Virus record (IMG/VR): IMGVR_UViG_3300037070_004046
Span: 1 to 30,961 of that record
Length of the DNA: 30,961 nt
Origin: a virus
Direction: 5' to 3' (one strand)
Under the pieces are notes generated by a model. The model was not told where the DNA came from. It worked only from the letters and a program-made list of their open reading frames with translations, and did no database searches. The number at the start of each line of letters is the position of its first letter. Positions within the stretch are counted from its first letter, which is position 1. Below, in pieces: positions 7,575 to 21,040 of this stretch. The position numbers and the translations under genes are program-made.

Positions 7575-7661
7575 ATGAACCCCTTTCTGTGGTTGTCCCC
7601 TGCGATGGGGTTGGTTTATTGGTGGTGCCGTAGGGCTTTCTGTCCCTTAGGCTGTCGCAAG

Positions 7662-7689
7662 TCTATAACGAAACGCTGGAAAATGTCAA
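7662..7689 (-). promoter_or_regulatory. Promoter for the leftward AAA+/VWA operon
   Basis: On the minus strand TTGACA (7689-7684), a 16-base spacer and TATAGA (7667-7662). Transcription would begin near 7655, about 80 bases before the ATG at 7574. Confidence 0.65.
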
Positions 7690-7724
7690 ATATTTTACGA
7701 AAAAACAACGATTTAACAGATTGA

Positions 7725-7739
7725 AATTCGTTTCGAATT
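7725..7739. repeat. Palindrome between divergent promoters
   Basis: AATTCG-TTT-CGAATT is a 6-base inverted repeat whose right arm touches the -35 box of the rightward promoter. A repressor bound here could influence both directions. Confidence 0.5.
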
Positions 7740-7766
7740 GACTTTTTCGAGCGATTGTGGTATATC
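7738..7766 (+). promoter_or_regulatory. Rightward promoter into the GTTACA array
   Basis: TTGACT (7738-7743), 17 bases, TATATC (7761-7766). It points toward the small DNA-binding protein gene at 8147 through the repeat array. Confidence 0.5.
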
Positions 7767-7781
7767 GTGTGTGTTATTGAG

Positions 7782-8107
7782 TGTAACAAAAGTGGGGTTT
7801 GTAACGGTTTTATTATGGGTTTTTATACGTTACAAGCATTAGCCTTATTGGTTTTTGATGTGGTCAAAATAGGGACTTTTTGTAGTGTAACGAATAAAAA
7901 ACCGTTACAATTACCCCCGTTATGTAGCTTGTAACGTGGTATAGGGTTTCATTTGTTACATTTATTTATATATAGGTAGAGAAATAGTAAAGATAAAATA
8001 ATAGGGTGTCCGTTACACTGTTTTCGTTACACTTTTGCTGACCCCTGTTACGGACATTTGGCTGCCCGCTGTGTTGTTACCCGCTTTTGGGGTGGCGGTG
8101 TGTTACA
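7782..8107. repeat. Array of about ten GTTACA/TGTAAC boxes
   Basis: TGTAAC begins at 7782, 7800, 7886 and 7930; GTTACA begins at 7829, 7904, 7955, 8012, 8026 and 8102; near matches start at 8047 and 8076. TGTAACG (7886-7892) and CGTTACA (7903-7909) form an inverted pair with a 10-base spacer. Chance predicts well below one copy of this hexamer (both orientations) in 330 bases. Likely binding sites for a repressor or replication initiator. Confidence 0.75.
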
Positions 8108-8115
8108 AAAAGGTG

Positions 8116-8121
8116 TATACT
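8116..8121 (+). promoter_or_regulatory. Possible -10 box for the 8147 gene
   Basis: TATACT lies just downstream of the last GTTACA box (8102-8107), 25 bases before the ATG. The -35 position has no good match, as expected for a regulated promoter. AAAGGAG at 8135-8141 is the ribosome site. Confidence 0.4.
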
Positions 8122-8146
8122 AAGAGTGTAATTAAAGGAGTAACAT

Positions 8147-8338
8147 ATGCCAGAGCAATTTACTGTCAAAGAGAAGTCCAAAGAACCAGCGTCACAATTA
8201 GTACGGGTTGATACAGCCATGTATAAAGCGATTGTGAAGTTGGCAGAGGAGAATAGTAGGAGCATAACGCTACAAACTAGCATACTTTTAGGTGCTGCTC
8301 TTAATAGAGGGCTACATAACCCATCTGATATGACTTAG
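8147..8338 (+). CDS. Small ribbon-helix-helix-like DNA-binding protein (candidate)
   Basis: A 63-residue protein. After a basic N-terminal tail comes a short strand-like stretch (QLVRVDTAMY), then two predicted helices (KAIVKLAEENS and TLQTSILLGAALNRGL). Strand-helix-helix of about 45 residues is the Arc/MetJ fold, whose dimers bind short operator boxes. No motif is diagnostic, so this is a fold-level guess. AAAGGAG precedes the ATG by five to six bases. The gene sits directly after the GTTACA array, so the simplest reading is that it binds those boxes and controls its own promoter and perhaps the divergent early promoters. Confidence 0.6.
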   Translation: MPEQFTVKEKSKEPASQLVRVDTAMYKAIVKLAEENSRSITLQTSILLGAALNRGLHNPSDMT

Positions 8339-8696: not shown

Positions 8697-8739
8697 TGAT
8701 ATTCGAAAATAACGTTGACTCTGAAGGGTAGAATGGCTC

Positions 8740-8806
8740 TGTAACGCTCTGAAACGCTCTGTATGGCGTTGTAACGTCCGAAACGGGTTTCGACCCGTCC
8801 GAAACG
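8740..8806. repeat. Helically phased GWAACG repeats
   Basis: Ten-base units GTAACGCTCT (8741), GAAACGCTCT (8751), GTATGGCGTT (8761) and GTAACGTCCG (8771) follow one another without gaps. CGTCCGAAACG then occurs twice (8775 and 8796) on either side of GGGTTTCGACC. The core GTAACG equals the boxes in the 7782-8107 array, so one protein may bind both. Confidence 0.65.
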
Positions 8807-8879: not shown

Positions 8880-9290
8880 CTAGCGCTTTTTACCTGCGAA
8901 CAAGTCGGTTTTTACGTATCCACCCTTAGCAGGTATCTGTCGTATAGTCCGTTGGCTATCCTTTACGAATAGGTTGCCACGTCCGTTGTAGTACACCGTA
9001 GCACCGTCTAGCAGTCCGTTTTTACCGTTGTAACACTGTAAAACTTCCTTATCTTTAGAGTACTTACCAATCTGTACTAATCGTTCGTCATCAACGGCAT
9101 AAAAGCTATCGAATGACTTGCGAGTATCGACGTTATCACCCCTTGCAATGTCATGCAATGCAATCGACTTCCAAGTGGTGTTTACGTCATCGAGGTCTAA
9201 TACCTCTGTTACATTTACTCCGAATTGTAGCCCCATGTGGGTTTCGATGTCGGTATTAAGTGGTAACCATGAGCCTGAAATAACTGTCAT
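8880..9290 (-). CDS. Unknown 136-residue protein ending in a DLFAGKKR tag
   Basis: A soluble, beta-rich protein with no recognised family. The C-terminus reads KTDLFAGKKR, nearly identical to a peptide found three times in the giant ejection protein (DLFAGKRR at residues 561, 655 and 805 there). The body contains VLQCYNGKNGLLDGATVYYN, which looks like strand-turn-strand. The gene is a separate unit with a TTGACA-N17-TATAGT promoter upstream and a strong terminator right after the stop. The leader has two small hairpins and AGGA about 11 bases before the ATG. The shared tag suggests that it binds the same partner as the ejection protein, or is itself carried in the virion; both are inferences. 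Confidence 0.75.
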   Translation of the reverse strand: MTVISGSWLPLNTDIETHMGLQFGVNVTEVLDLDDVNTTWKSIALHDIARGDNVDTRKSFDSFYAVDDERLVQIGKYSKDKEVLQCYNGKNGLLDGATVYYNGRGNLFVKDSQRTIRQIPAKGGYVKTDLFAGKKR

Positions 9291-9373: not shown

Positions 9374-9402
9374 ACTATAGCCGATATGCCCTGTCATGTC
9401 AA
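9374..9402 (-). promoter_or_regulatory. Strong promoter of the 9290 gene
   Basis: TTGACA (9402-9397), 17 bases, TATAGT (9379-9374) on the minus strand. The transcript would have a leader of about 77 bases with hairpins CCAGT-ACCG-ACTGG and GTATCA-GA-TGATAC. Confidence 0.75.
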
Positions 9403-9468
9403 TGGTATTCGCAATAACCATCGACATCACCCCTGTTATTTATGTGTGTGTATCCTGTTGTATCCCAT

Positions 9469-9655: not shown

Positions 9656-9937
9656 ATGTTTGATTTTCTAAATAAGCTATTGGGCCACAAGACAACAGGT
9701 GAAATTCGTGAGTCAAAAGAAAAATCGAGACGGCTGAAACGAGATGCTGAGCTGCGAAAGAGCGCTGCGAACGCCAAACCCGCTCCGCAGAAGCAACGTG
9801 TCTTCCGACCAGACGCAGACCCCGAATACTACTCGCAGAGGGGGCTAGCTAAGAACGAAGCTGAGTCGCAACGTATGGTTAACGAGTATCGTGAGAAGGG
9901 CTACCCAGGCGTAAAGCCCCTGTTCCCAAAAAATTAG
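9656..9937 (+). CDS. Unknown 93-residue basic protein, probably leaderless
   Basis: The N-terminus MFDFLNKLLGHK is an amphipathic helix, followed by a highly charged helical stretch (REsKEKsRRLKRDAELRK), a Pro/Lys linker and a C-terminal segment with EYYSQRGLAKNEAESQ and YPGVKPLFPK. No family recognised. The first residues resemble those of the giant ejection protein (MFDWISKLFGGG). There is no ribosome site, and a -10 box lies six bases before the ATG, so a leaderless mRNA is likely. A strong terminator begins at the last base of the stop codon. It forms an isolated unit in the accessory region. Confidence 0.7.
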   Translation: MFDFLNKLLGHKTTGEIRESKEKSRRLKRDAELRKSAANAKPAPQKQRVFRPDADPEYYSQRGLAKNEAESQRMVNEYREKGYPGVKPLFPKN

Positions 9938-10918: not shown

Positions 10919-10980
10919 TAGAGGCGGTAAGTGTTACACGCTTGGGTGACCCCCGCCTCTAGTAGGATGGGGGTTTTCTT
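10919..10980 (+). promoter_or_regulatory. Leader with competing hairpins (possible attenuator)
   Basis: TAGAGGCGG (10919-10927) can pair with CCGCCTCTA (10953-10961). Alternatively ACCCCC (10949-10954) plus CCT pairs with AGG plus GGGGGT (10969-10974), followed by TTTTCTT and directly by the ATG. The second form looks like an intrinsic terminator, and the two share bases. If transcription starts at 10925 part of the first stem is absent, so the switch would need an upstream start. Confidence 0.4.
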
Positions 10981-12354
10981 ATGTCCAAACGAGTGGACGA
11001 AATATACGACGAGATAAACGATAAGTTCACGTTCAGGATTTTCCTAGGTGCACCGATGTTCTACGACTCGGACAAGAAGCGATACGTGCACCTGAATGAA
11101 ACGACGATGCTCCGCATCCTGCACCGCCACTCGAGTATCAAGCCACGAGCCAAGCAGAGCGAAGCGAAAGAGGTGTTCGAGCTTGTCAGTTCACTCTCGA
11201 CCGACATCGACGCTCACAAGCACCTGATACTATTCGGTGACGACTATGCCACGCAGAAGGTCTGGAACATGGAGGCGGTCGAGTGGGAGACAGTTCCGAA
11301 AGACATTTCTCATATAGTATGGAGAAGTTCGACAGCTCCGAGCGACGACCCCGACGCAATCGCAGCCGTTCGAAAGTTCTTGCTCGAAGTAGCCAAGGGC
11401 GACGAACGCCATATGCAGGACATCTTACAGGCGTGTGCCCCGCTGTTCACCGCATCAAAGCCCCTAGGTGTCATATGGTTCTCTGGCAATGGGCGTAACG
11501 GTAAGAGTGGAGTCGTAACACTCCTGCACAAACTATTGGGCGACTACCTGACCAAGATGACGCTGCACCAGATAGAAGACGGCAAGATGACCCCCGCATT
11601 GAACGGTCACCTCGGTAACATCCTAGAAGAATCCAGTGAAGGTTACATCAACGACTCCGAGAAGTACAAGATTATTGGTGAGCACGGCACATTCTTAGTC
11701 CGTAAGTACCACTCGCAGGACAGCATCAAAGTCGATACCAGCATGATGCACACTATCTTCAATACGAACAATATCCCGAACTTTGCCGACAAATCATCAG
11801 GGGTCAGGGCCCGTACAATTATCGTTCCGTTCCTTGCGACGTTCAAAGAAGACCCGAACTTCTTCAAGAACACATTCACCGACGAGTTTATGAGTGCCTT
11901 CCTGCACCTAGTAACCGAGGCAGCACAGCAGATACGTGACCAGAACTACACCTATAACTGGGGTCCGATTACCAGCGGTGAAAAACAGACGTACGACGAC
12001 GAGGTGAACACCGTAGAGGCATACATACGCTACCTGCGAACCAAAGCCATTACAGGGTTCACGAACTGGCGTCAGCTCCGTATCCACTACGAAAACTGGT
12101 GCACCGATAATGGCGAGGTGCCACTCGGGCTCAAGGCCATGAAAGCTACATTTAAGCACATTACGAATGCTACTGATAAGGTGATGCGTGAAGGCAATCT
12201 AGTTACTCGACGTTGGGTAATCGACAAGCCAAGCGACGCCAAGATTAAGCGTTCGGTCCTACTCGACGGCATCGGTCTATGGGTTGACCCCGCCAAAGAC
12301 GACGCCCTGAAGAAGGAACCACAAACGAAGCTCGACATTGAAGGGCTGGCGTGA
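10981..12354 (+). CDS. SF3 (D5/P4-type) replicative helicase
   Basis: A 457-residue protein of the phage/plasmid D5 primase-helicase C-terminal class. It has Walker A GNGRNGKS (169-176), Walker B NILEES (213-218), motif C ending in NTNN (261-264) and the arginine-finger segment SSGVRARTI (272-280). The C-terminal 130 residues look like the winged-helix region usual in this family. No primase zinc finger or archaeo-eukaryotic primase motif is visible in the first 160 residues, so primase may be separate or absent. It should load at and unwind the phage origin. ATG follows a T-rich tract with GGGGG upstream, and its TGA overlaps the GTG of the next small gene. Confidence 0.9.
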   Translation: MSKRVDEIYDEINDKFTFRIFLGAPMFYDSDKKRYVHLNETTMLRILHRHSSIKPRAKQSEAKEVFELVSSLSTDIDAHKHLILFGDDYATQKVWNMEAVEWETVPKDISHIVWRSSTAPSDDPDAIAAVRKFLLEVAKGDERHMQDILQACAPLFTASKPLGVIWFSGNGRNGKSGVVTLLHKLLGDYLTKMTLHQIEDGKMTPALNGHLGNILEESSEGYINDSEKYKIIGEHGTFLVRKYHSQDSIKVDTSMMHTIFNTNNIPNFADKSSGVRARTIIVPFLATFKEDPNFFKNTFTDEFMSAFLHLVTEAAQQIRDQNYTYNWGPITSGEKQTYDDEVNTVEAYIRYLRTKAITGFTNWRQLRIHYENWCTDNGEVPLGLKAMKATFKHITNATDKVMREGNLVTRRWVIDKPSDAKIKRSVLLDGIGLWVDPAKDDALKKEPQTKLDIEGLA

Positions 12355-12915: not shown

Positions 12916-13677
12916 ATGAAACCTGATTACGACACGCTACCTAAACGACCGACCGAGTTCTTCGAGTTCTTAATCGAACAGCGGTGGAGTTACTTCGTAT
13001 CCCTGGATACCGAGGAGCTGAATAATAACCAGATGAGCATCGTCGCCCTGGTGAAAGCGTGTCGCTCTAAGAACCTGAAAGCCATCAAGGCGGGGATGAA
13101 CCGTATCGACGGTAAGCTCGCTGTCGTTGTAGAGGTCGAGCAACCACGGTTCTATATGGAGTACCCTAATGCCCCGACTACTGGACTACTAGAGGCCCCG
13201 AAAGTGGACACGTTCAAGAAGAAGGCGGAGGATGAGCACATCCCAACTACGGGGCTCCGTAATACCTTACGGGTGCTAGGTAACGCCAAGACTGGGGCGG
13301 TAAACCATCTGCTAGACCTAGCTGGTCAGGTAGAGCGCCTGGCTATGGACGGTATAACCCCAGCTGACAAGCAGAACCCGTTCGTTAAGAGCATCATCAT
13401 GGCATCCCTACTTAGCATGGGTCATTCGGGGGACTTAACAGCCATCTTCGAGATACTAGACACCATAGATGGGGTAGTAGCTGACAAGGTGAAACTACTT
13501 GGGGATGACGTGGTACTGCAGAATCATAGTCTAGTAGCCCCTCCTGGAGCCTACTTAGGACCCAATGGGGTACCCACTATGGATATGGCAAGTCAGGCTA
13601 ATGCGTGGGGGCAAGCAATCGCATCTAAGAGGGGTATAGACCTGGCTATACAGGAGAATAATAGTGAGCGAAGCTAG
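12916..13677 (+). CDS. Terminase small subunit-like protein with an internal duplication (tentative)
   Basis: A 253-residue protein. Residues about 43-74 (IVALVKACRSKNLKAIKAGM then IDGK and VVVEVEQ) and 161-195 (IMASLLSMGHSGDLTAIFEI then IDGVVADKVK) share the pattern helix, x-L-x-AI, I-DG, V. The pattern (small residue-DL-AI-E-I/L-RIDGK-V) is frequent in phage terminase small subunits and related DUF5681-like proteins. No clear N-terminal helix-turn-helix is visible. Its position before a nuclease and the virion genes fits DNA packaging, but TerL is 14 kb downstream, next to another unknown protein that could equally be the small subunit. ATG at 12916 follows the previous stop by one base. 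Confidence 0.6.
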   Translation: MKPDYDTLPKRPTEFFEFLIEQRWSYFVSLDTEELNNNQMSIVALVKACRSKNLKAIKAGMNRIDGKLAVVVEVEQPRFYMEYPNAPTTGLLEAPKVDTFKKKAEDEHIPTTGLRNTLRVLGNAKTGAVNHLLDLAGQVERLAMDGITPADKQNPFVKSIIMASLLSMGHSGDLTAIFEILDTIDGVVADKVKLLGDDVVLQNHSLVAPPGAYLGPNGVPTMDMASQANAWGQAIASKRGIDLAIQENNSERS

Positions 13678-15205: not shown

Positions 15206-18200
15206 ATGTTCGACTGGATTTCAAAGCTCTTCGGCGGTGGTAACCAGCAGAAGAGTTCATCACCCAAACCCCAATCTCGTCCTCAGCCTAATCCGCTGAC
15301 TCAGATGCCATCCATGGGAAGCAGTCGTCCGATGGTCGATTTGGCTGCCCAGGCTCGTGAAGAGGAGCGTCGTCGCCGTGAAGAGGAACGTAAGGCTAAG
15401 CAAGCTGCTGACGCTGCTAAGAAGGTCAAGGAACAAGCTGAAGCCAAGGCTAAGCAAGAGCAGCAGAAACCACAAAAGACGGTCAATCCCATGGCTAACG
15501 GGGATATGTTTAGTTTGAACATGAAGCCACAAGTACCGCAGAAACGTACGGTACAGGTGGGTAACAACCCTGTGAATATGAGCCAGCAACAGCTGGATGT
15601 CGTTCGCAAGAATCCTAACGCACCATATGCACCCGAAATACACGCAGCAGCGAAGCTAGGGAAAGAGCCTACTAAGCTCGAAGCCATGAAGATTAAGATG
15701 GACCAGAATGCTGCTGACACTCGAAAAGCTAAGGTCAACAGCGCCAAGGCAAGTATGCTCGCTAACCAGATTGGTGGCGTGCTTCAGGCTGTACCACGTG
15801 AAACAGCTAACTTGCCTGCATTCGGAGCTGACATCCTCGGATGGGCTGGTATCAACAAAAAGGGCATGAAGCAGTTCTCTGAAGACTGGACTGCACTGAC
15901 CGATGAAGGCTTCAATCAACTGAAGATGCCAGGCGGTAAGTCATACAACGAGGTGCTCCAGGACACTGAACGTGCCCAAGATGCTAACTTTAAAGCTATC
16001 TACGAAAACGGCGGTAGGCTTAACGAAGCAGAAATGGGTAGCTTGGCCTTTGCGGAAGGTCTTGCTTCCCTTGTTAGCCCTACCGAAGCTGGAGTAGGTA
16101 TTAAAGCCGTTAGTAGGGTCAGTCGTCCTGTACAGGAGTCCAAGATTTTCGGTACAGCTGACACGATAGGTGAGTCTACTCGTCTTCGCCAGATTACTAC
16201 TGAAGCGGAGCGTGTAGCCCAAGAAGCTGAGGAGGCCACGAGTCGACTACCTGACCAAGTGCAGATTGAAAAGCAAGCAGCTGAAGCTGGTCGTATCGAC
16301 GATGGTGTCAGTAGCCCGTCACGTGTAGAGCAGGTACAGAGTAACCTGACCCAGCACGTCGAGCAGCAGAAGGCTGAAATTCAAAGTCGCTACGAACGTA
16401 CACTTATGGGCCTAAATGAGCTAGCTGATTCCATGACTCCCCGCCCACTAGCTACCCAGTTAGCTGGTACTCCTGACCCTATGATGATGGCCCGACAGGC
16501 AGATGCCCCCTCATTTGACCCCCCACAACAGCTCACTCCATTGGATGACTTAGCGGTCCCAAGTAAGACCCCAATAGCCCAGGCTATGGACTCCCCTAAT
16601 GAGGCTGCCTCTAAGGCTGCAGCAGACGCTGCTCCTGCCCCTGCACCTGAGAACGTGGTAAAGACTCGCACCCTGGAAGACATGGACGACGCAGAAATTG
16701 CTAGGCGGTTCAACGGCGCAACCCGTGAACAAAAGATGGCAGAACGTGAGGCTGCTCTGGCTGAACGAGAAGCTGAGAAAGCAGACAAGGCTGAGCGAGC
16801 CAAGGCTAAAACAGACCGCAAAGCTCAACGAGCTGCAGCCCAAGAGCAAGCAGCCATCGACGCTGGTGAAGCACCTGCTAAGACCGACCTATTCGCTGGT
16901 AAGAGGCGGACTACTGCTGGTGCCCCTGCTGAAACGAAGCCTTCGAGTAAAGCTGCCACAAAAGAACGCCAGGCTCTAGAAGATAACTTCAAGAGTGTAC
17001 TCGACGGTGGCAAGACACCTGATGATGTAATCGCTTCGTTCAAGGACTGGTTGAAAAATCCAGATAATCCACGTTTCGTTCCACAGGTAGAAGCAAACAT
17101 AGCGAAACTCGAAAGGCTGAAACAATTACGGGACGGTACGCCTGCTCCTAAGACGGCTGCCAAGAAGGACCTATTCGCTGGCAAACGTCGTGATGAAGCT
17201 CCTGCTAAAGAAGCTCCTGCTAACAAGGAAAGTAACGGCTGGACTACTACGAAGAACAAAGATGGTGAAAACGTAGACACCAAGACTTACGACTCATTCA
17301 CTGGCGGTACTGTAACGAAGAACGTCACCCACTTCAAAACTGGTGGTACTATGTCGAAGTACACGGCTAACAAAGCTGGTGGTAAAACCAGAGAGTTCAC
17401 CCGCTTAGGTGATGCTAAGAACTGGTTGGCAAAGCCTGCTAATGACCTGCCTAGCACCGCTTCGGTACGCCTGTCGAAGGAGCAGAAGGCTCTCGATACT
17501 CGTAGGGCAGAGAACGCTAAGACCGTTAAGGCAGCTGACCCAGTCGATGACGACATCCCAACCCCTGACGACGTAACTGACTTCTCAGCCCCTAAGACCA
17601 CTGCTGACAACAAGAAGGACCTATTCGCTGGTAAGAGGCGTACCACTAAGGATGCCAAGGGTACTGGTCAAAAGCACACTAGCTCACCTAACCAGGGTAA
17701 GACTAAGTTCGTCGCTGGTGCTAAGGGCGTAGAAGCTGAAAAGCCATCGAAGACTCCTACTGAGAATAAGAACATATTTACTGGCGAAGGCGACAGCCCG
17801 CAGAAGAAAATGACTCAGGCTCAACGTGACGCAGCCAACAAACTGGGACGTGAAAACAGGAAGAAAGCTAAGGCCGAAGGTAAAGACAAGGTCGCAGCCA
17901 AGAAGCTCACAAGCGCACGTGCTCGTCAGACCGTCGGTGAAACTGGTGACGAAGGTACGACTGCTGCTACGGCACGGGCGTTCACCGCTCACAATACGAA
18001 GATTAACATCGCCAAGGAAACGGCTGATGCTGCTGCTACGGTTGAAAAGGTATCTGACAATAAGATACTCCAGTTCGCTGAAGACACGCTGACAGATGGC
18101 AAGACCGCAGACAGCCCGCAGTATATGTTCATGGCTGAAGCTATCGTTAAACGCCTCGACGTTATGCGCCGTGAGGGCAAGATTGACTACGACGACATGA

Positions 18201-21040
18201 TAAACGTCGCAGCCAAGCTGGAACAGAGTCTGGCACTCAGGGCATCCAAGTCTGGTCAAACCCAGCGTATTACCCGTGAACTGTACAAGAACGTCCCTGC
18301 TCCGATACGGGTGAAGAAAGAGCTGGAGAAGATGAAGGCTCACTTCGAAGACGTACTCAAGAAGGAGTTCACATACACGAAGGCTGATGAAGCTGAATTA
18401 CTGAAGCACACCGATGCCTTTGATAACGCTGCTCAGAAGCTTGAAGGTGCTGAGGCAAAGATGGACACGACGATGTCCAAGATGCTCGACCCTGAGAACA
18501 AGCTCTCTGACGCTGACCTGGACAAGCTCGACGCTGAGTTCAAACAGGCAGCCGAGACACGTAAGCAGGCTCAAAAGGATGCTCTTAAAGCTAGCCAGGA
18601 CTACAAGGCTAAGATGGACAGTCTTAAACCCCCACTTACTGGTAAAGAGAAGTTCCAAAACTGGGCCCTAGGCGCACCTGACTCAATGGGTAACTACCTA
18701 CGTATGTCGATGCTTTCAGCCCCATCTGGACGTATTCGTGACGTGTTCTCTACCACCTTCAACGTAGTAGACCAGGTAGCATGGCGAACAATTGAAGCGG
18801 TAACTGGAAAGCTATTGAACAAGACTACTGGTACCAACCTCTTATCTAGCATGGGAAGCAACGCTTCACGCAAGAAGGGTACACTTGGCTCTTGGGACAA
18901 GCTAAAGGCATCGTGGCGGGGTGAGTACACCCTGGACGAAGCTACTGGCCGTGCTGAAATGAACGACCGTTCTGAGCTTAAAGGCAAAGACAGTATCTAC
19001 GTATTCGGTAACAAGGTGCCTACCAAATCAAAAGGTGGAATGGTTCGTGGCGCACTCGGTCTTCCAAAGAAGCTGGTCACCACTACGGTGCAGGCATCAA
19101 CCGACCTTTCGTACGGTATCTATACTGACCGCTTGTACGCTAACGGGCTTAAGGCTGCCAACGCTGCTGGTCTTACTGGCAAGCAAGCTAAGAAGTACGC
19201 TGAAATGTACATGGAACGTCCTGACCTGAACGGCCGAAAAGACGCTGCTCGCATCTGGCTGGAGAACTCTGGTATGCACGATAACTTCATTAGTAAGAAC
19301 CTTACTCGGTTGACTGACGCTCTCGATACCGCTGGTAGCGGTAAGGGTAAGGGTAAGGGTAAGGGCGATACTGAATCTGTAAAAGTTCGTTTTTTGAAAA
19401 AGGCAGTCGCTCGTACAATACGCACCACTACAATCCCGTTCGTCCAGTACCTTGGTGGTGCGACGCACGCTATGTTTGTACACCAGAACCCAGTCGTAAA
19501 CTTCAGTAAAGCGATAGCAGCTGGTGTCAGAAAAGACCCTCAAGCAGCTATCGAGAACCTCTCAAGGGGTGGTTGGAATACCGTCAAGATAGGTACGCTT
19601 ACAAGCTTGATTGGTGCTGGAGTGCTCGAAATGAGTGACACCGACGCTGACGGTAAGTCCCAATACAACGGACCATACGTCGTCCACAACGGTACATATG
19701 TCCCAGCCAGTACCTACGGTATCGCTGCAGGTTCCGCTATCATCAGTGCTCACTACATCCAAAAGGCTCTCGATAGCCTACAGGAAGGTGACATTGCAGG
19801 AGCGATGGCTAACTCTACTGTCGGTCCTTGGTGGGCTACGCTCCAGGCATCTGGTATGGACAATATGCTCTCTGGTTCTACTATACTGGCTGGACTCCCA
19901 GCTAGCTTAAGCCAAGTCGCACAGAACAGCAGCAAGAGCGCTACCGATATAGCAGCTACCATTACAGGTGGTGTAATCGGGGACATCGGTACCCAGGGTG
20001 TACCAGCTATCCTTCGTGACATTGACGCATTCCTCAACAAGGACCCGAACTACAACCCGACTGGTGAGGCACCTGACACGTCTGGTAAGGACGCAAACGG
20101 TAGGGTAAATCCTATCCAGAAGGGTATCGCCCAGGTAAAAGCTGGTATCCCATTCCTATCCGCTGACCTACCTCGTAAATCTGGTAAGCAAGCTAAGTCA
20201 TTCACTGACCGTATCTTTAACGCCAATACTCAATCGGAGCAGCAGGCTGCAGCGGTTAAGAAGACTGAGACCGAGAAGCAGAACACGATTACCCGTGCCA
20301 ACTCATTGTTCGAAGACCCAGACATCACGTCACTACTGTCAGACGAGCAAAAAGCTATCCACGACAAGTACAAGGGCAAGCTCGATAATGCCTCGAAAGA
20401 GGACATGGACAAGATGTGGAAGGGTGTCAAAGACTCCAAAGACAGGCTCATGGATGACGGCAAGTTCACCGCTCACGGTAAAATCCTGAGGTACGAGCTG
20501 GAAGAAATGAAGGCTGCCGGTAAGAGCAGTAGCGTCGACATCGCCAAGCACGAACGAAAGACTATCCGTTCAGAGCTGGCTGGTAAGAACAACATTAGGC
20601 CTGACATCTTCCGAATGTACACTGGTGACGACACGGCCGAAGGTGGTGGTATCTCCCAGTCTGAGTTCAACAAGATGGTTGACCCAGACGACCCAAGCTA
20701 CACGCCAGAGGGTCACGAAATCGCTAACCTATTGGCTCAGCTGGACGCTATATATACCGAAGCTGGTGTCAGCTCGAACACCAATGGTGTCGACCCTTGG
20801 AAGAGTAAGAAGTACAAACTGCCTAGTGACTACGCTGCTGAAAAGGCTGCCAAGGGCGGTGGTGGCGGAAGCAAGAACCTGATGGCAACTGACGTCGGTA
20901 TCCTGAAGATGATGGAGACCGAAGATGGTGGTAACGGACTGAAGTACAAGACGGTAAGCGGTGTGCCAAACATCATGGCTACTACCCCCCGAAAGAACTT
21001 CAAGAAAACTATTAGCATCAAGAGGGGGGTACAGCTATAA
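15206..21040 (+). CDS. Giant ejection-type virion protein (1944 residues) with DLFAGKRR repeats
   Basis: The longest gene of the window. The N-terminus is an amphipathic helix (MFDWISKLFGGG) followed by a Lys/Glu/Ala-rich coiled-coil-like stretch. Residues about 450-870 are a low-complexity Ala/Lys/Thr region holding DLFAGKRR with its Asp at 561, 655 and 805, and a weaker NIFTGEG at 856. A GKGKGKGKG stretch is at about 1379-1387. Residues about 1400-1600 (PFVQYLGGATHAMFVHQNPV; the segment around IGTLTSLIGAGVLEM; YGIAAGSAIISAHYI) resemble the membrane-active portion of large polyvalent phage proteins. I see no lysozyme or transglycosylase motif. Such proteins are carried in the capsid and enter the cell with the DNA. 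AGGGGG precedes the ATG. Confidence 0.8.
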   Translation: MFDWISKLFGGGNQQKSSSPKPQSRPQPNPLTQMPSMGSSRPMVDLAAQAREEERRRREEERKAKQAADAAKKVKEQAEAKAKQEQQKPQKTVNPMANGDMFSLNMKPQVPQKRTVQVGNNPVNMSQQQLDVVRKNPNAPYAPEIHAAAKLGKEPTKLEAMKIKMDQNAADTRKAKVNSAKASMLANQIGGVLQAVPRETANLPAFGADILGWAGINKKGMKQFSEDWTALTDEGFNQLKMPGGKSYNEVLQDTERAQDANFKAIYENGGRLNEAEMGSLAFAEGLASLVSPTEAGVGIKAVSRVSRPVQESKIFGTADTIGESTRLRQITTEAERVAQEAEEATSRLPDQVQIEKQAAEAGRIDDGVSSPSRVEQVQSNLTQHVEQQKAEIQSRYERTLMGLNELADSMTPRPLATQLAGTPDPMMMARQADAPSFDPPQQLTPLDDLAVPSKTPIAQAMDSPNEAASKAAADAAPAPAPENVVKTRTLEDMDDAEIARRFNGATREQKMAEREAALAEREAEKADKAERAKAKTDRKAQRAAAQEQAAIDAGEAPAKTDLFAGKRRTTAGAPAETKPSSKAATKERQALEDNFKSVLDGGKTPDDVIASFKDWLKNPDNPRFVPQVEANIAKLERLKQLRDGTPAPKTAAKKDLFAGKRRDEAPAKEAPANKESNGWTTTKNKDGENVDTKTYDSFTGGTVTKNVTHFKTGGTMSKYTANKAGGKTREFTRLGDAKNWLAKPANDLPSTASVRLSKEQKALDTRRAENAKTVKAADPVDDDIPTPDDVTDFSAPKTTADNKKDLFAGKRRTTKDAKGTGQKHTSSPNQGKTKFVAGAKGVEAEKPSKTPTENKNIFTGEGDSPQKKMTQAQRDAANKLGRENRKKAKAEGKDKVAAKKLTSARARQTVGETGDEGTTAATARAFTAHNTKINIAKETADAAATVEKVSDNKILQFAEDTLTDGKTADSPQYMFMAEAIVKRLDVMRREGKIDYDDMINVAAKLEQSLALRASKSGQTQRITRELYKNVPAPIRVKKELEKMKAHFEDVLKKEFTYTKADEAELLKHTDAFDNAAQKLEGAEAKMDTTMSKMLDPENKLSDADLDKLDAEFKQAAETRKQAQKDALKASQDYKAKMDSLKPPLTGKEKFQNWALGAPDSMGNYLRMSMLSAPSGRIRDVFSTTFNVVDQVAWRTIEAVTGKLLNKTTGTNLLSSMGSNASRKKGTLGSWDKLKASWRGEYTLDEATGRAEMNDRSELKGKDSIYVFGNKVPTKSKGGMVRGALGLPKKLVTTTVQASTDLSYGIYTDRLYANGLKAANAAGLTGKQAKKYAEMYMERPDLNGRKDAARIWLENSGMHDNFISKNLTRLTDALDTAGSGKGKGKGKGDTESVKVRFLKKAVARTIRTTTIPFVQYLGGATHAMFVHQNPVVNFSKAIAAGVRKDPQAAIENLSRGGWNTVKIGTLTSLIGAGVLEMSDTDADGKSQYNGPYVVHNGTYVPASTYGIAAGSAIISAHYIQKALDSLQEGDIAGAMANSTVGPWWATLQASGMDNMLSGSTILAGLPASLSQVAQNSSKSATDIAATITGGVIGDIGTQGVPAILRDIDAFLNKDPNYNPTGEAPDTSGKDANGRVNPIQKGIAQVKAGIPFLSADLPRKSGKQAKSFTDRIFNANTQSEQQAAAVKKTETEKQNTITRANSLFEDPDITSLLSDEQKAIHDKYKGKLDNASKEDMDKMWKGVKDSKDRLMDDGKFTAHGKILRYELEEMKAAGKSSSVDIAKHERKTIRSELAGKNNIRPDIFRMYTGDDTAEGGGISQSEFNKMVDPDDPSYTPEGHEIANLLAQLDAIYTEAGVSSNTNGVDPWKSKKYKLPSDYAAEKAAKGGGGGSKNLMATDVGILKMMETEDGGNGLKYKTVSGVPNIMATTPRKNFKKTISIKRGVQL
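19340..19363 (+). repeat. GGTAAG hexanucleotide tandem repeat inside the giant gene
   Basis: Four perfect GGTAAG units encode Gly-Lys repeats. Gain or loss of units keeps the frame, so length could vary between isolates. Confidence 0.8.

Follow-up and report, generated by a model that had tools for sequence, protein, structure and literature searches.

Introduction

Replication origins of phage-inducible chromosomal islands (PICIs) carry two sets of iterons that always flank an AT-rich region, and the origin function of one of them, that of EcCICFT073, has been tested (PMC6092414). In 2018, this iteron plan was called unknown in other bacterial replicons (PMC6092414). Origin iterons are recognised through a C-terminal domain by SaPI Rep and by Cch2, a D5-type helicase of SCCmec elements that reads short iterons in this way (PMC7581432). 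Here we analyse virus record IMGVR_UViG_3300037070_004046 (positions 1 to 30,961; this whole stretch of 30,961 bases is called the window), in which a dense array of GTTACA boxes lies at 7782-8107. A preliminary description, made from the sequence alone, had offered two readings of the array, a replication origin and a complex early operator. Judged from sequence comparisons, the array is most likely the replication origin of the phage. We place at roughly 85% the probability that it is an origin of the PICI/Sfi21 type, at which a D5-type helicase would bind the boxes and melt an AT-rich block.

Like PICI and SaPI origins, the locus has two sets of short iterons, facing both ways, that enclose an AT-rich block, and it goes with a D5/DUF5906-type Rep helicase; in relatives of the window, divergent inner boxes and a similar gap length are shared as well. 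It differs in that the phages that carry the array encode terminase and head proteins themselves. The window is not a satellite, as shown by matches to terminase, major head protein and virion structural protein. A known origin plan is found in a new setting.

A dense box array with an AT-rich block

The array occupies non-coding DNA between a leftward gene arm, which extends up to 7574, and a small gene at 8147-8338. All ten exact hexamers of the preliminary description, which it had placed in both orientations within about 330 bases, were recovered: 7782, 7800, 7886 and 7930 on the minus strand and 7829, 7904, 7955, 8012, 8026 and 8102 on the plus strand. The 7-mer CGTTACA forms the core in seven of the ten boxes, and relaxation of the core to GTAAC gives 13 boxes between 7783 and 8144. 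Both repeated 57-base distances (7829 to 7886 and 7955 to 8012) were correctly described, and the inverted pair with a 10-base spacer holds for the 7-mer (TGTAACG at 7886-7892 and CGTTACA at 7903-7909).

Counting confirmed that the dense array is real. GTTACA occurs 10 times in 7575-8146, whereas its count across 5,000 dinucleotide shuffles averaged 0.72 and peaked at 5; the corresponding values for CGTTACA are 7, 0.17 and 3. Other words can score high when the best of all 6-mers is taken in shuffles, and significance was therefore judged on the named word and against real non-array DNA. When 597 stretches of 600 bp were taken from non-array DNA of the window and its relatives, the best 6-mer count ranged from 3 to 7, versus 10 in the array. 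GTTACA occurs 33 times in the whole window against 20.9 expected, and is thus near chance level outside the array.

Boxes at 7782-7955 and 8012-8102 lie on the two sides of a box-free gap (7961-8011). The A/T-rich block of the preliminary description is present at ~7953-8003. Its duplex stability is -49.7 kcal/mol, where the mean is -70.3 (standard deviation 4.0), and is the lowest value for any 50 bp of the 31-kb record. Searches of Rfam and a DNA search of phages gave no match. Structure z-scores of -2.1 for the leader as RNA and -3.6 for the DNA strand are attributable to the inverted boxes and were not counted as a separate structure. GC skew of the window may follow gene strand and was left unused.

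The array plan recurs in related phages

Single queries with the 8147 protein, MoxR-like ATPase, terminase and helicase retrieved one other contig only, which is identical in the overlap and does not cover the array. Relatives were therefore sought more widely among IMG/VR loci with profile alignments. A terminase alignment yielded family L010-L019, with best-segment terminase identities of 42-63%, and a helicase alignment yielded 35 loci (L003 and L102-L135). Box arrays recur in fourteen other contigs (G003, G007, G010, G011, G013-G019, G021, G023 and G025), sitting where the leftward and rightward gene arms part in those that were mapped. Boxes read TGTAACA in G010, G018, G021 and G023, TGTAACC in G019, GGTAACG in G017, GTGTACAC in G003, G011 and G025, TGTCTACA in G014, G015 and G016, and TGTCTAG in G013, with a weaker TGTAAT in G007. 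The array is thus kept as a plan, not as a sequence, and its word changes with lineage. Most words, taken in one orientation, would fit a common frame of approximately A(G/C)TGTNNAC.

The most AT-rich inter-box gap lies between divergent boxes in 13 of 14 relatives; the distance between inner boxes is 66-95 bp in 12 of those 13 and 126 bp in G015. If each orientation had a random chance of 1/4, the probability of at least 13 divergent cases in 14 would be ~1.6e-7, a figure that exaggerates the case because the phages are related. A box pair spaced by 8 bp borders the gap in G010, G014, G015, G018, G019 and G021, and likewise in phage Sfi21 and four satellite phages. The gap is also the least stable stretch of the examined locus in G003, G025, G013, G014 and G016.

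The same plan in known origins

As controls, we used the annotated 'origin of replication' of Streptococcus phage Sfi21, the region behind the phage 858 primase, and the corresponding regions that follow the primase genes in four Streptococcus satellite phages (PICIs). By the rule applied to the relatives, all six display divergent inner boxes 74-83 bp apart with an AT-rich gap between them, a comparison weakened by hand-picking of box word and strand for each region. When the commonest 6-mer was taken blindly, gaps measured 71-128 bp and inner boxes faced opposite ways in 8/8 relatives tried; the window, as under the first rule, was the exception.

Sfi21 (NC_000872) presents this plan in an annotated phage origin: a 302-bp non-coding region with AGTAAC boxes, a divergent pair 83 bp apart and an AT-rich gap. 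The putative primase of Sfi21 is distantly related to the window helicase. Sfi21 differs in that its origin lies directly behind the primase gene, and the two primases share only ~22% identity. Several boxes of this family contain AAGTGT, to which the Cch2 iteron AAGTG is similar; this 5-mer likeness may be due to chance, and only three iterons are described for the Cch2 system (PMC7581432). Together, relatives and known origins lend strong support to the first proposal of the preliminary description, an origin of replication.

Box confinement and the small gene at 8147

In most relatives the box word is almost restricted to the array, with counts inside versus outside of 11 versus 0 in G003, 8 versus 0 in G025 and 6 versus 1 in G018; exceptions are G011 (12 outside copies) and G016 (four). 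This distribution bears on the second proposal, a complex early operator. In the form considered here, a ribbon-helix-helix protein encoded by gene 8147 would bind the boxes, repress the divergent arm as well as the promoter of its own gene, and govern a phage-wide regulon. Gene 8147 does adjoin the array directly, box 8102 overlaps a possible promoter with TATACT at ~8116, and extra boxes occur at 8740 and 8770, within a 10-bp-phased run in the region (8740-8776) where related boxes had been described. This run is a possible auxiliary binding site. The 7-mer has a further intergenic copy at 292, and the GTTACA reported at 10932-10937 exists one base to the right, at 10933-10938. Of the divergent promoters claimed for one end of the array, promoter-like sites are present at the left end, as an operator would have them, but regional matches are not clearly above those in shuffles.

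The protein itself fits the operator proposal poorly. Its matches are at best marginal (Pfam ParD_like, E 0.11, below the cut-off; Arc-like, E 0.15), a search against PDB structures gave no match, and a single-sequence model is one long helix, leaving the ribbon-helix-helix fold unconfirmed. No relative of the protein was found in the family loci although arrays are there, and neither a conserved AT-rich gap nor fixed box spacing is expected of an operator. Autoregulation by the 8147 product at its own promoter is possible, but would leave the array unexplained. We consider an operator read by this protein very unlikely, and the near-confinement of boxes to arrays in most relatives does not support a phage-wide regulon.

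Short repeats are common targets of ribbon-helix-helix proteins. A partition site or centromere of a phage-plasmid would also be compatible with short boxes that face both ways and with a weak PHROG match of the 8147 protein to a partition-protein family (E 0.053). No partition ATPase was recognised among the main genes of the window that were scanned, however, and the plan matches origins in detail, making a partition site extremely improbable.

A D5-type helicase as candidate initiator

The helicase gene at 10981-12354 matches PHROG DNA primase families. DUF5906 was found in 22 of 28 family helicases and is also present in the primase of PICI Javan547. Kinship with SaPI5 Rep is evident from a profile match to the SaPI5 primase-helicase in the PDB (E 2.7e-16), which was again the best match of an AlphaFold2 model with a mean pLDDT of 85 (Foldseek 8.9e-17; Z 25.9). 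In our reading of the model, residues ~344-413 are predicted to follow the winged-helix order helix-strand-helix-helix-strand-strand. The P4 alpha protein, a broadly similar helicase that binds its origin through a winged helix at the C-terminus and goes with ori/crr iterons, serves as a lead only; it differs in that the Pfam Pox_D5 match is marginal here (E 0.14 in the window; 1/28 relatives).

We infer that the boxes are bound by this helicase and that replication initiates at the array region in vivo. Helicase hexamers would bind the GTTACA boxes via a winged-helix domain at the C-terminus, assemble to the left and right of the AT-rich block and melt it, whereupon replication would start. 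One natural case is in line with a helicase that reads the boxes, without amounting to proof: the helicase core of G017 is 69-73% identical to that of the G010 group while the winged helix is only 29-33% identical, and the box is GGTAACG in G017 versus TGTAACA in the G010 group.

The array could also be an origin whose boxes are read by another phage protein or a host protein that recruits the helicase. A candidate reader is the 253-amino acid protein encoded at 12916-13677, which lacks a known domain and occurs in 14 of 16 contigs searched, and there are pairs in which winged-helix identity does not track box type. Several observations count against another reader. The related SaPI Rep and Cch2 bind origins by their own C-terminal domain (PMC7581432), same-plan origins go with same-family helicases in PICIs, and variation of the box word among phages argues against a fixed host protein. 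Another reader is on balance unlikely.

Some evidence sits awkwardly with an origin of the PICI/Sfi21 type served by this helicase. The GTGTACAC box is shared by three relatives whose winged helices are dissimilar (27-36% identity), so that box and domain do not track each other simply. The start of the helicase gene lies 2.9 kb rightward of the array, without PICI-like adjacency; arrays of this type lie kilobases from the helicase gene, where the gene arms part, instead of directly downstream as in PICIs. Inner boxes of the window are not divergent, in contrast to the controls, where they diverge ~70-85 bp apart. The AT-rich block instead lies between same-orientation boxes (7955 and 8012) that are 57 bp apart, unlike 13/14 relatives and all controls. 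Finally, the relatives are non-independent samples. The window does have a gap between boxes in the family's usual orientation, at 7835-7885, which is less AT-rich (65%) than the block, and it may use the first gap, the second gap or both.

Two observations concern the surroundings of the helicase gene. Its leader (10920-10980) contains a AGAGGCGG...CCGCCTCT dyad, read by eye, that overlaps a stem on the scanner list at 10955-10974. GTTACA lies in the loop, and the T-rich tail of the stem abuts the start codon; the leader may be an attenuator. The gene of the 253-amino acid protein adjoins that of the helicase in the contigs examined.

dif-like sites and possible hosts

A 24-bp near-palindrome of the form GTCG...CGAC (GCCG in G021) adjoins the array in 11 of 14 relatives and resembles a dif site. 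A scan of 84,980 species genomes revealed a single helicase relative, L154 (CALMSM010000212.1), binned with an uncultured Candidatus Saccharibacteria bacterium. Among 380 genomes of the phylum of this metagenome-assembled genome (MAG), helicase relatives were found in the MAG itself only, which does not settle the host. With at most one mismatch allowed, the dif-like consensus was found at a single place in each of 33 genomes, out of 96 from the same phylum, and a reversed control pattern matched none of the genomes listed. On one 786-kb chromosome the site maps close to the point where GC skew turns from plus to minus, with a tyrosine recombinase gene ~650 bp away, a position as expected of a dif site. 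The dif-like site of the G016 phage is identical to a chromosomal one.

These sites suggest Patescibacteria hosts and use of host XerCD. A broader proposal, which we advance tentatively and regard as possible but doubtful, is that the phages form a family of tailed phages of Patescibacteria (Saccharibacteria) with PICI-type origins, in which the iteron word is exchanged together with the DNA-reading domain of the helicase. Most members would carry a copy of the host dif site beside the origin, and host XerCD would resolve phage multimers or integrate the phage at the terminus of the chromosome.

The dif-like site is absent from the window. A palindrome at 9396-9427 was considered as a candidate and rejected, with 0 matches when up to 3 mismatches were allowed. 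It is a different, longer palindrome (ATGTCAATGGTATTCGCAATAACCATCGACAT) just before a ACCCCTGTTAT motif; the dif-like palindromes of relatives likewise precede ACCCCTGTTAT. The motif CC(C/T)CTGTTA occurs around the arrays of most family members, mostly in non-coding DNA, and is present in the window at 8042, 8353 and 9430.

Significance

For a phage family without known cultured members, the probable origin is located and a likely initiator named. The plan was held in 2018 to be confined to PICIs among known bacterial replicons (PMC6092414), and is found here in Sfi21-type phages and a whole uncultured phage family. Many natural pairs of helicase and iteron word are available in this family, among them one (G017) in which the reading domain has apparently been exchanged, and render a code of initiator recognition directly testable. 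The dif-like site beside the putative origin provides an independent lead to hosts.

Other features of the window

Coordinates of the array and of neighbouring features are collected in Table 1.

Table 1. Features of the window and dif-like palindromes of its relatives
Feature	Position	Strand	Basis or remark
Iteron-like array; proposed initiator-binding sites	7782-8107	both orientations	ten exact GTTACA/TGTAAC
AT-rich block; proposed DNA unwinding element	~7953-8003		least stable 50 bp of record
Gap between divergent boxes 7829 and 7886, family's usual box orientation	7835-7885		51 bp, 65% AT
D5/SF3-type replicative helicase (DUF5906); proposed origin-binding initiator	10981-12354	+	profile and model matches
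253-amino acid protein without known domain	12916-13677		found in 14/16 family contigs searched
63-amino acid lineage-specific protein; ribbon-helix-helix candidate of the preliminary description	8147-8338	+	not shown to be part of the system
Promoter-like site, leftward arm	7660-7689	-	TTGACA-18-TAGACT, TTGACA at 7689; consensus match only
Promoter-like site that would transcribe through the array	7738-7766	+	TTGACT-17-TATATC, read by eye; not on scanner list
Second small cluster, 10-bp period	8736-8800		sequence: TGTAACGCTC TGAAACGCTC TGTATGGCGT TGTAACGTCC
dif-like palindromes beside the putative origin in relatives	L095 16355-16378; L106 1440-1463; L135 2691-2714; L137 2636-2659; L129 9214-9237; others

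Two likenesses were seen among other proteins of the window. A 136-amino acid protein (8880-9290, minus strand) ends in DLFAGKKR, and a 1944-amino acid protein (15206-21040, plus strand) has three internal copies of DLFAGKRR; DLFAGK(K/R)R is possibly a shared tag for sorting, docking or cleavage. The proteins at 9656 and 15206 start alike, with MFDFLNKLLG and MFDWISKLFG, respectively.
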